NCBI GenBank assembly: GCA_033439295.1
Contig: JAVTLE010000023.1
Coordinates: 682,001-746,000 of the forward strand
Origin: Deuterostichococcus epilithicus
Lineage: Eukaryota; Chlorophyta; Trebouxiophyceae; Prasiolales; Stichococcaceae
DNA length: 64,000 nucleotides
Reading direction: 5' to 3'
Shown here: in pieces, positions 54,509 through 58,804 of the stretch
Layout of the letters: every line of letters starts with the position of its first letter
Position numbering within the stretch: position 1 is the stretch's first letter
Translations under genes and position numbers: made by a program
The notes under the pieces: generated by a model
What the model was told of the DNA's origin: nothing
Databases searched by the model: none
What the model saw: only the letters and a program-made list of their open reading frames with translations

Positions 54509-57500
54509 TCATGGCAGGAGGACGTGGTCGATGATGTGCACCACGCTGTTGCAAGTCAGCAGGTCGGTTGCCACGCTCGTCGCGTCAGAGTTGCGGCCAA
54601 GGAAGCGGAGTTCGCCTGCCATGATTCACACCCAGTTGAGGCTTCGATGATCAGGACGCAGCGATGCGGGGCGAAGCAAACCGCTAGTGAGTTTATACAC
54701 ATGCACTTGTTATGGTGCTGCTGCATCTCAGTACAATATTTTGGAGCCTTTGCAGTGTGAGATGAGAGAAATTACGTTGTGAACACAGCACGTGCCCAGC
54801 TCACCAGGAGCAGCAGGGCCGGAAGCGACGACGCGGATGCGCAGACCATTCACCTGGACATCCAGAGATCAGATTTCACAGGGTGATCGAGGTCAGAGCG
54901 CACCCTGCTGCTGCAGCAGCAAATCGAAGGAGGGTATGCATATTGCAAAAGGTTTTGTCGATGGAACCTCATGGAAATGCGCTGAGAGCGTAATCCAAGC
55001 AAACGCTAACATCAACACACCGTGTCCGCCATGATCGAAGGTGCGCCACCAACCAGGTCCTGTGCCATTTGCGGATGTCAGATGCCAAACGCAACACTTC
55101 AGCTGCACTGATGGCATCGGAGAGGAACAACACGTCAATACCTGGCACTCGATACTCAGGGACCAAGGGCGCTCTGAACCACTGGCCATGCACCTCCGGG
55201 AGGATGGGGCCACTGAAGCCGCCAGATCCCACGTTTGCGGCGCGCAGCTGCCCAGGAATGATATGGTAAAGGAGCACCTGACCACAGGTAGAAGCCTCAC
55301 TGCGAAGAAAAACATGGCCCGCCAAGTTTCGAGTGCATGCTGAGCAGCACGCACATGCGAGGGGCCACTCACAGGAAGTTGGAAGCTGTGGTCGACAGTG
55401 TGCCACGGCAGCAGGCACTCACCAGCCGCAGCGCACTTATATCCGAGGTGTTCAGGACGTTAGCCGAGAGGATGGCAAAGGCAGCATTCGTTGGAACGAG
55501 GACGGTGTAGGTGGCATTTGCATCGTTGAGCGCCGGTAGGAGGCCTGTGTCGGCAGCAAGTACACGTGATGAGCATGGCGATCAATTGCGTCGAGGTCAC
55601 AGCTGAAGAATGTTTCCAGCCCTGGCCTCTACAGGCCAGGGCAGAGACTGTAGAAACGATTGCTTCAAGCAGAGACGCACCCCCTCTCCTGATTATGCTG
55701 ATCAAATATTCAGGTAGGAGCGGTCAGTCCGACCTGTGCGATTGGCCAGCATGAGGAAGGTCGTCGCGTCAGGCCGGCGCTGGAGCAGCTGGTAGACAGA
55801 CGGCGTGCAGTTAGCCTGCACACAACATCGAGGCCGCGAAGCGGTAGTAGAACATGCCAACCCAGGAGCATGAAATGCGCCAAGTTCTGCAAGATCGTCG
55901 GTTCGTCAGGACCTGGGCAGCGGCCTGAGGTGCGCCTGCGCGGCCGCCAGGAGAGGCGTTGCCAAGGGCGGTGGCGTTGATGCCGGTCTCTGGCGCCAGC
56001 GTGGAATTGGGCTGCGACAGCAAAATTAACACTTAACAGAGATGTCAGTGAGAGTGGGAGGATTGCATTTTGCAAGGCTGTACCGTGAAAGGACTATGGC
56101 AGAGCATATCATGTGCAGTTACAGCAATGCTTCAGAGCTGCCTGATGCTCGCTCCCCTGATGCCGTGACCGGCCAGTGCGCATGTTGCAGACATTGATCA
56201 GGCAACTGATTTGTCCGAAGAATTCTCGTCGTGCAGTCAGCAGACCCACCTGTCCGAGGAACGCGGGCGTGGTTGTTGTGGAGAACTGGACGTTGGTGGG
56301 GTACTCCTGCCCCTTGACAACCGGTGCCGTAATGGCGCTCCTGCGGCAACGGTTGCTCCGTCTATGAGGCTGCTCCGGCGGCTCGTGTGCACTACCCAGC
56401 ATTGTCAGTACTCACCGTGCCACGAGCTGCTCAGGTCTGAGCGCATTGGTGATGCGGAAGTCCCATGGCAGCGGCGGCAGTCCGGACAGCTGCCACACGG
56501 CACCTGCAGACTCATTGCCGCAACTGCTTCGAATCAGCTAGGGTGTCGTAAGTGGCGAGCCAAGGTCCGTTGCATGCCTGTCAGCTCATACCAGTGGCTG
56601 AGACACACAGCAGAGGACAGCACGTTTCAATGCATGGCTGCAGTGCTGCCAGGACATGTGCACCTCACCATGATCGTTATCCAAATTAATCCAGGTGCCG
56701 GCAGTGGAGTTGCCACCTGTAATCGCTTGGGTGATGCTGGCGTTGTTCTGCGGGCGAAAAGCACATGGCAGTGTTTGGGTGGTTGTTTGATGACACCTGC
56801 TGCAGGGGCGGCAGTGGCAGGCCCACTGATGCAAGGAGTGTGATGAATGCAGGCACAGCCATGCACACATTTGGACGGTGTTTGGTGGCCTGCTCGAAAC
56901 ACTGAGGGGCCTCCTCGGAACCAGCATCTTACTGCCACACCTCAGGAGACGTGCGGATCTCCAGGGTGCCGATGGCGGCGTTGCCGGCGACCATGGTCGG
57001 CGCCACAGCCAGGAAGCCGCCGCCAGACTCTCGGTAGTCCACCACCTTGAGGTTGATAGGCCCCGGCGGCTTGCATTCGACCTGCGCGCGTCGGCACACA
57101 GTCCGTGATTCGCCACACATACATACTCTGACTCAGCCAGCAGCTTAACACACATGCAGGCAGCGACGTGCACAACTGGAACCGGGCAGCCGACCGAGCT
57201 TGCAGCCGCCACTTCACCTGCCAGTGAGATAGATGCTGGCCATGTCATAAGCCGCTCCAAAGCGATTGCTGTGCGAGAAGATTGACATCATTGTCGATGC
57301 CTGGGTGGAGTAACAAATGGCAGGTTTCCACAGTCATTGCTGGCACCTGCTGGAAGGTGACGTTGGCCTGGCCGAGGGCGCCTCTGGCGATGTGAAGATT
57401 GAAGGTGAGGTAGTGCAGCACCAGCTGGTTGGGCGCGCAGCTGGGGCAGGAGTCCACCACCTGGACAACCGTCGGCTGCGGGTTTGCCGGGCAATGCACC

Positions 57501-58804
57501 TACAGAGGAACAGATCATTTCACTCTGTGCGGCGGCTGTGTCGTAACAGGTCAGTCAAGGGCTGCAACCAACGGCACCGGATTCGAAGTGGACGAAACAC
57601 CCAGAGCAAGCATGCGGGTCACATTCAGGAACAGGTGTCCATGTGTTCAACACACGGCCGTCGTCAAGACGTTTTTCGAAGTCAGCGGGAGGAAGCGCAG
57701 CACCGGGTCGAGGGCGCGGTTGCACTGGACCTGGATGCACACGCCGCAGGCGCCCTCTGGCTTGACCTGTACGCATTGGGAGTATAATATATGATGCATG
57801 ATCAGGCTGCCCAGCTGACGAGTCGAGAATGCATGCTTGTCCATGTGTGAGCATGGTCTCGATGCAGACACAACTTCATACAACCCGCAAGCTGCTCACA
57901 TGGCCATATCGTTCCTCTCTTTGCATAGGACTTGGAACCCAATTACAGGATGCGCACAGGGCAACTGGCAGCACACAATACGCACGCGTCAACTGGCGAC
58001 AAGTGAATTTCGAGTTCTGCTGCACTACGGCAGTGGCAGACACCTGCTTAAATGCAATGAACTTCTGCACAGTGTCACCTCAGCAGCGGATCCGAGACCA
58101 GTGGCGCTACTGTTGGAGCGCAGCAGCGTGGCTCCCTGCGGGCTGATGCTGGTGACGGCCCAGTAGGGCCACTCATTCGACATCAACATGCCGTAGCCGC
58201 AGGCGCCGTCCACCAGGCCACCTGATGGCATGAATGGATTCTGCTGATTCTGCGGCCAGAAAGTAGTATGATCAGTAGATGACTGAGGCGAGCCAGCAAG
58301 CTGCATTCACCAGCACCCTTTATTCGCCTGCACAAGGTTGCTCGATGAATGGCGTGTGTGCGTCAGTCCCTCCATGGCTTGTTTTGTTGCCGCATGCTCC
58401 CCTGATCTGTTCGAACAGGCCATAGCTGTGCTGCATGAAGCCGAATGTTGGTCCAGTGATGAGCAAGTGAGCTGCAGCATCGTTTTGGCGAGTCTGATAC
58501 GTGAGAGCCGACAATGGGCTTTTGCCAGCCCGTCGTCGTTGCAACCTTCAAGTCGCCCGTGGGATCCTTACAGTAGCGCAATTGAAGCCCTTGGACTTGA
58601 GCAACGCAACCCAGATTCTGCCACATGCAGCTCATACAGATGAGTTTGCCAGACCTGCGGGCCGCCGAAGGTCGTGGCCGTGCCGTTAATAACCGGCCCG
58701 AGTGCAGCACCGGACTGCTGGCTGCCTGGTGCTGGCGGTTGGCCCAGTACTGAGAGGCAGCACGCTGCCATCAGGCTGACCAGCAGCAGGCGACTGGCGT
58801 GCAT
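54509..58804 (-). CDS. Expansin-fasciclin (FAS1) fusion protein, secreted
   Basis: Expansins loosen cell walls; FAS1 domains mediate adhesion in extracellular proteins. Fourteen exons, 58804-58655, 58249-58079, 57766-57704, 57499-57347, 57081-56941, 56747-56669, 56503-56416, 56340-56250, 56011-55913, 55815-55734, 55544-55423, 55277-55194, 54853-54805 and 54615-54509, join in phase to 492 codons. A signal peptide (ASRLLLVSLMAACCLSVLG) starts it. Expansin D1 (about 38-179): NGTATTFGG, GLVDGACGYG, WPYWAVTSISP, ACGVCIQVQC, VVQVVDSCPSCAPNQL. D2 (about 180-312): INLKVVDYRESGGGFLAV, GTLEIRTSPE, WQLSGLPPLPWDFRITN, EYPTNVQF. An Ala/Asn linker with N-glycosylation sequons follows, then FAS1 (about 346-492): SVYQLLQRRPDATTFLML, YTVLVPTNAAFAIL, LLYHIIPGQLRAANV, NGLRIRVVASG and VVHIIDHVLLP at the end. 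The D1 HFD motif is missing (LVLHYLTF instead). There is no C-terminal membrane anchor. Every junction keeps phase, so this is one gene, not two neighbours. Confidence 0.88.

Follow-up and report, generated by a model that had tools for sequence, protein, structure and literature searches.

A predicted expansin-FAS1 fusion gene of Deuterostichococcus epilithicus in which the functional Asp of expansins is replaced

Introduction

Does one gene at this locus join expansin domains to a fasciclin (FAS1) domain in a single leader-bearing protein, and would the expansin part of such a protein still loosen the wall? The mode of action of the fasciclin-like arabinogalactan proteins (FLAs) of plants is unclear, and a tie between FAS1 and expansin bears on how FAS1 domains are placed. 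The window, by which we mean the whole stretch of 64,000 nucleotides that was analyzed (C19:682001-746000), belongs to a genome of 46.8 Mb in 21 contigs. An initial annotation had placed a fused gene at 54509..58804.

Results

Gene structure

When positions 58804 to 54509 of the minus strand were re-spliced by hand, 15 exons, 14 GT-AG introns and one open frame of 505 codons plus a stop codon were obtained (Table 1). The encoded protein consists of a leader (read by eye, without a predictor), expansin domain D1, expansin domain D2, an Asn/Ala-rich linker and a complete C-terminal FAS1 domain, in this order. The frame, coordinates and order of parts given by the initial annotation, as well as its C-terminal VVHIIDHVLLP, are borne out by this re-splicing. 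Its single frame stands, but its counts of 14 exons and 492 codons do not: the gap of 13 codons between 492 and 505 is the size of exon 13, which the earlier reading thus appears to have skipped.

With the window protein as query, two close paralogs were found on the same contig, P2 (49% identity) and P3 (56% identity). Exon 13 is supported by P2, in which LPEDL is followed by VNGGASTTVDTLNG at the same place, and is recovered by the P2 protein as query. This query returned exons 4-14 of the window gene with exact ends (11 of the 15), together with the acceptor of exon 15, in a comparison of two models that are not independent, because the window protein served as a partial guide in modelling P2. 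Less confidence attaches to exons 2 and 3: when guided by P2, the alignment divides exon 2 and begins exon 3 at another place, and by eye there are several phase-0 GT options for the end of exon 3. In addition to the three N-glycosylation sequons of the linker exon, a fourth lies at residue 347, in exon 10.

Table 1. Exons of the expansin-FAS1 gene model, in window coordinates
Exon	Coordinates	Strand	Content
1	58655..58804	-	Start codon, hydrophobic leader (MHASRLLLVSLMAACCLSVLG), beginning of D1 (NGTATTFGGPQ); donor recovered with P2 query
2	58079..58249	-	D1 (GACGYGML); 3' portion variable among paralogs; donor less certain
3	57704..57766	-	D1 (ACGVCIQVQC); 5' and 3' boundaries less certain
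4	57347..57499	-	D1 core (VVQVVDSCPSC...QLVLHYLTF); Asp144 retained; Val155 at HFD/LDL Asp position
5	56941..57081	-	D1/D2 boundary and first portion of D2 (CBM63-like)
6	56669..56747	-	D2
7	56416..56503	-	D2 (GAVWQLSGLPPLPW)
8	56250..56340	-	Final strand of D2 (YPTNVQF) and start of linker (STTTTPAFLGQ)
9	55913..56011	-	Linker (PNSTLAPETGINATALGNASPGGRAGAPQAAAQ); three N-glycosylation sequons
10	55734..55815	-	Beginning of FAS1 (ANCTPSVYQLLQ)
11	55423..55544	-	FAS1; TVLVPTNAAF, H1-like motif
12	55194..55277	-	FAS1; LLYHIIPGQL, YH-like motif
13	55021..55059	-	FAS1 (DLVGGAPSIMADT), 39 bp; apparently overlooked in the earlier reading
14	54805..54853	-	FAS1 (VNGLRIRVVASG)
15	54509..54615	-	End of FAS1, H2-like VVHIIDHVLLP, stop codon; acceptor recovered with P2 query

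Domain assignment

The window protein contains a complete Fasciclin domain (PF02469) at residues 361-505, which scores 68.8 bits against a Pfam cut-off of 22 and covers profile positions 2-123 of 123. H1, central YH and H2, which a section of an FLA survey gives as the named motifs of FAS1 domains (PMC6514703), are present as TVLVPTNAAF, LLYHIIPG and VVHIIDHVLLP (assigned by eye). Expansin_C (PF01357; residues 199-285) reaches 21.7 bits, below its cut-off of 24.6, and DPBB_1 (PF03330; residues 112-175) reaches 19 bits, below its cut-off of 28.8. Of the three Pfam domains named in the initial annotation, Fasciclin is therefore recovered, and Expansin_C and DPBB_1 are not recovered from the window protein alone. 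Expansin_C passes its cut-off in P2 (37.2 bits) and P3 (38.4 bits), and DPBB_1 stays below its cut-off in these paralogs too (13.6 and 17.5 bits). A profile of the three paralogs matches the beta-expansin EXPB1 (2hcz) with an E value of 1e-10 over profile positions 75-258 of 268, from the middle of D1 to the end of D2. Because P2 and P3 pass Expansin_C and the paralog profile matches EXPB1, we regard the window protein as related to expansins, and it is through the EXPB1 match that D1 (DPBB, GH45-like) followed by D2 (CBM63-like) is recognized. A search of NCBIfam gave a single weak match, EXLX1, at 26.2 bits versus a cut-off of 100. By eye, no hydrophobic tail of a GPI-anchor signal, which is frequent but not universal in FLAs, was found after VLLP in the window protein, and by composition, without a predictor, no Pro-rich AGP glycomodule was seen in its linker.

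The paralogs P2 and P3

P2 (L042; modelled extent C19:587200-582955) has a leader, an Ala/Pro/Thr-rich stretch, expansin domains, a linker and FAS1, whereas P3 (L043) has expansin domains without FAS1. Re-splicing and the architecture common to P2 together support the earlier claim that expansin and FAS1 parts occur in one leader-bearing protein. An AG is missing from P2 at the place where the window gene has the acceptor of exon 11; with an alternative GT-AG intron the frame of P2 stays open and gains 32 residues, and P2 may use this alternative or be imperfect there. In the model with the alternative, which is provisional in its final residues and stop, the Fasciclin domain of P2 still scores 44.8 bits, above the cut-off, over profile positions 13-118. 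The Ala/Pro/Thr-rich stretch near the N terminus, 175 residues long as delimited here, contains 52 A, 29 P and 21 T. It lies between the leader and the expansin part (minus strand of C19:580500-588500, about 1301-1930 of the reverse complement) and is arabinogalactan-protein-like. Intron 1 of P2 is apparently a GC-AG intron.

In a midpoint-rooted tree of five expansin parts, two genes on C14, the models of which were built by an aligner with P3 as guide, stand apart from the C19 genes. The latter are arranged as (P2,(window,P3)) with support of 89/90, short of the firm-support mark of the tool. If this tree is right, the fusion predates the split between the window gene and P3, and P3 lost FAS1.

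One gene or two

The junction between the expansin and FAS1 parts can be compared with both paralogs. In P2 the final strand of D2 and the linker (STNVKFSTAVTPAAFGQPGSTLAP...) lie in a single exon, without an intron at the place of window intron 8, and a phase-1 GT-AG intron leads from this exon to FAS1. The position and phase of window intron 8 are shared by an intron of P3, whose next exon reads PGSTLMLPTAGM and stops after 12 codons. Because the D2-linker exon of P2 splices into FAS1 and the intron of P3 matches window intron 8, we prefer a single gene; from the exon structures of P3 and P2, exon 9 is part of the expansin gene, and the linker of P2 continues into FAS1. The FAS1 part of P2 aligned to the window downstream of exon 8 with a score of 330.5 (60 shuffles: mean 53.3, maximum 73.8), and a 48-residue junction peptide of P2, with 28 residues from the linker and 20 from the beginning of the FAS1 exon, scored 70.3 versus a maximum of 49.5 in 200 shuffles, these controls being a measure of similarity and not of splicing. 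Differences between the window gene and P2 at codon positions 1/2/3 amount to 0.40/0.30/0.60 for FAS1 and 0.39/0.32/0.53 for the expansin part, a pattern as would be expected of a selected protein in both parts; it is less apparent in the linker, which is weakly conserved, with an identical residue at 19 of 45 codons and a position 2 difference of 0.47.

An alternative is that adjacent expansin and FAS1 genes were wrongly merged in our model. It would agree with P3, which is a natural expansin-only version ending in a linker exon, and with the presence inside intron 8, at 56123, of TGTAA, the usual chlorophyte poly(A) signal. The minus strand of the window carries 13 copies of this motif, including one each in introns 1 and 2, and none was found between the stop codon and 53800. 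Two genes are difficult to reconcile with P2, which retains the order of parts with an unbroken D2-linker exon, with the frame of exon 10, whose closing stop ends at 55906 with no ATG from there to exon 10, or with a junction peptide that is conserved beyond shuffles. We judge a wrong merger highly improbable and, in view of the P2 and P3 structures, have set it aside as the main account. The locus might instead yield two products: besides the expansin-FAS1 protein in full length, a short expansin protein terminating in intron 8. P3 would then represent this short version fixed in a gene of its own, read-through from exon 8 does reach a stop inside intron 8, and the TGTAA at 56123 would again fit; we nevertheless consider a second product improbable.

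The functional Asp of expansins

In a profile alignment to solved expansins, the position of their functional Asp (D82 of BsEXLX1; HFD in EXPB1 and LDL in EXLX1) is occupied by Val155 in the window protein, and both P2 and P3 have Asn there; all three therefore lack it. Asp144 and several Cys of D1 are retained in the window protein. Among the five solved expansins aligned, four by visual count have Asp in this column (2hcz, 1n10, 7wvr and 9ms5), and 7xc8, a solved 'beta-expansin', likewise lacks it and has Val. The BsEXLX1 variants D82A and D82N are named as inactive in a passage of PMC5072189, and the same passage mentions simulations where D82N is compensated by a further change at Tyr73, as well as a bacterial expansin of S. 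aurantiaca with a natural Leu at the Asp position. Since the change at Tyr73 offsets D82N in simulations, Asn in P2 and P3 need not equal complete loss, and other residues could assume the role of the Asp.

Other expansin-like and FAS1 genes in the genome

At least 12 expansin-like genes, the window gene included, were found in the genome by exon-by-exon searches, which provide a lower bound. The Asp is kept in six of the 12 (one gene each on C4, C12 and C18, two on C7, and one on C14 near 1217 kb). It is absent from the window gene, which has Val; from P2, P3 and two genes on C14, at about 879 and 882 kb, all with Asn; and from a gene on C13, a looser relative in which Lys was placed by eye. 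The occurrence of Asp-bearing and Asp-lacking genes in one genome would permit a within-species test of the role of this residue in algae.

The FAS1 parts of the window gene and P2 were searched against L042-L049, eight loci that together cover every other expansin-like gene except that on C13 (10 of 11). The P2 locus was matched, and beyond it one chance-level stretch was found (E 0.61, at the P3 locus). The Pfam Fasciclin model matched two exons across the genome, on C9 and C14, an undercount given that it missed the window gene itself; the window FAS1 query recovered both the window gene and P2, and beyond these gave weak matches at one place on C12 (E 0.23) and one on C10 (E 0.25). Among 38 long neighboring ORFs, 10 were tested and none had a Pfam match at E 0.001; for one of these 10, no PDB match was found either. 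Scans for relatives confined to bacteria, archaea and viruses gave 39 pattern matches among genome contigs and 33 among viral contigs, none of which was confirmed.

Discussion

Comparison with paralogs and solved expansins shows, at the level of predicted proteins, a 15-exon gene structure, an architecture shared with P2 and the replacement of the functional Asp. The initial annotation had proposed a wall-loosening module anchored by FAS1; the fusion is upheld, but the loosening is called into question by Val155, by Asn in P2 and P3, and by the inactivity of D82A and D82N in BsEXLX1. Because the residue needed for loosening is changed, sticking to the wall is more probable than loosening it, and on balance the window protein is probably a wall-matrix linker or adhesin and not a loosener. 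One gene would give rise to a protein of about 505 residues with a leader, expansin D1 and D2, a short linker rich in N-glycosylation sites and one C-terminal FAS1 domain. We infer that this protein would be secreted via its leader, that D2, with D1 no longer loosening, would anchor it on wall polysaccharide, and that FAS1, extended on the linker, would bind another matrix partner as its ligand and so link wall and matrix.

The fused protein might instead contain an expansin part that still loosens the wall, with FAS1 merely targeting it, as in the mechanism originally proposed. Other features of D1, for example Asp144 and several Cys, are retained, and according to the cited passage of PMC5072189 an expansin of S. 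aurantiaca has Leu in place of the Asp and D82N can be offset by a second change in simulations. Set against these points are the Val155 of the window protein itself and, in the same passage, the inactive D82A and D82N variants of BsEXLX1. As judged from residues at aligned positions, a targeted loosener is unlikely, and we prefer the linker or adhesin. More tentatively, and with slightly less than even confidence, we propose an algal family of wall adhesins derived from an expansin by loss of the loosening residue and acquisition of FAS1, the fusion preceding the split between the window gene and P3, after which P3 lost FAS1; a formerly loosening module would thus have been recruited to anchor an adhesion domain to the wall. 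FAS1 on an expansin scaffold suggests a direct route for placing FAS1 on wall polysaccharide.

The window protein resembles plant and algal expansins (EXPA/EXPB; Expansin_C PF01357 and DPBB_1 PF03330) in having D1 followed by D2 behind a leader and in the EXPB1 profile match, but differs from them in the replaced HFD/LDL Asp, the additional FAS1 domain and DPBB_1 scores below the cut-off in three paralogs. With FLAs it shares a leader, one FAS1 domain and many introns, the last of which are described for green algal FLA genes in a section of PMC6514703, and P2 further shares an Ala/Pro/Thr-rich stretch; unlike FLAs, the window protein carries expansin domains, and neither a stretch of this kind nor a GPI tail is visible in it. 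FAS1 domains of plants occur almost only in FLAs according to an excerpt of PMC12820192. Modular microbial expansins are similar in that expansin is joined to a further domain (GH5, CBM, dockerin or discoidin), but FAS1 is not among the partners named in the passage of PMC5072189.

In agreement with the initial annotation, which knew of no such fusion, no description of an expansin-FAS1 fusion was found in titles and abstract starts of the open-licence literature, among the matches listed, and no open-licence paper was found in which 'expansin domain' and 'FAS1 domain' occur together. The word 'fusion' is absent from the text of a 2024 expansin survey (PMC11547041), a portion of which gives expansin counts of four for C. 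subellipsoidea and one for Volvox; the word expansin is absent from a FAS1 review (PMC6032426) and occurs once in an FLA survey, in the reference list only (PMC6514703). Separate expansins and fasciclin proteins are mentioned in parts of other algal studies: in Trebouxia 'A48', two of the three secreted expansin-like proteins have an RlpA-like domain (PMC12712428), two fasciclin-domain proteins are among the genes of Asterochloris induced by co-culture with its lichen fungus (PMC6652019), and Micrasterias has a 179-residue leader-plus-fasciclin protein and a separate expansin (PMC3191482).

Some further observations concern the genome at large. Light-harvesting genes are numerous (39 exon matches), and one exon matches chlorophyll a-b binding proteins of solved photosystems, the chains of which we take to be from green-lineage organisms; by its light-harvesting matches, the genome is of the green lineage. 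For plant-type cellulose synthase (PF03552), no exon match at E 1e-3 was found in an exon-by-exon search in which one candidate was scored, a soft negative. This lack of matches in a genome with at least 12 expansin-like genes pertains to plant-type synthases only. At about 2995-5850 of L052 (C13:1980000-1986000) lie the Lys-type expansin-like gene and, further along, a frame that encodes GLPVGAIIGIAVGAAVLLALA; this could be a membrane-spanning tail and may be separate from the gene. One of the Asn-type genes in L044 (C14:874500-884000) is followed on the minus strand, at about 3749-3537, by a Pro/Ala/Thr-rich open stretch, perhaps a hydroxyproline-rich tail.
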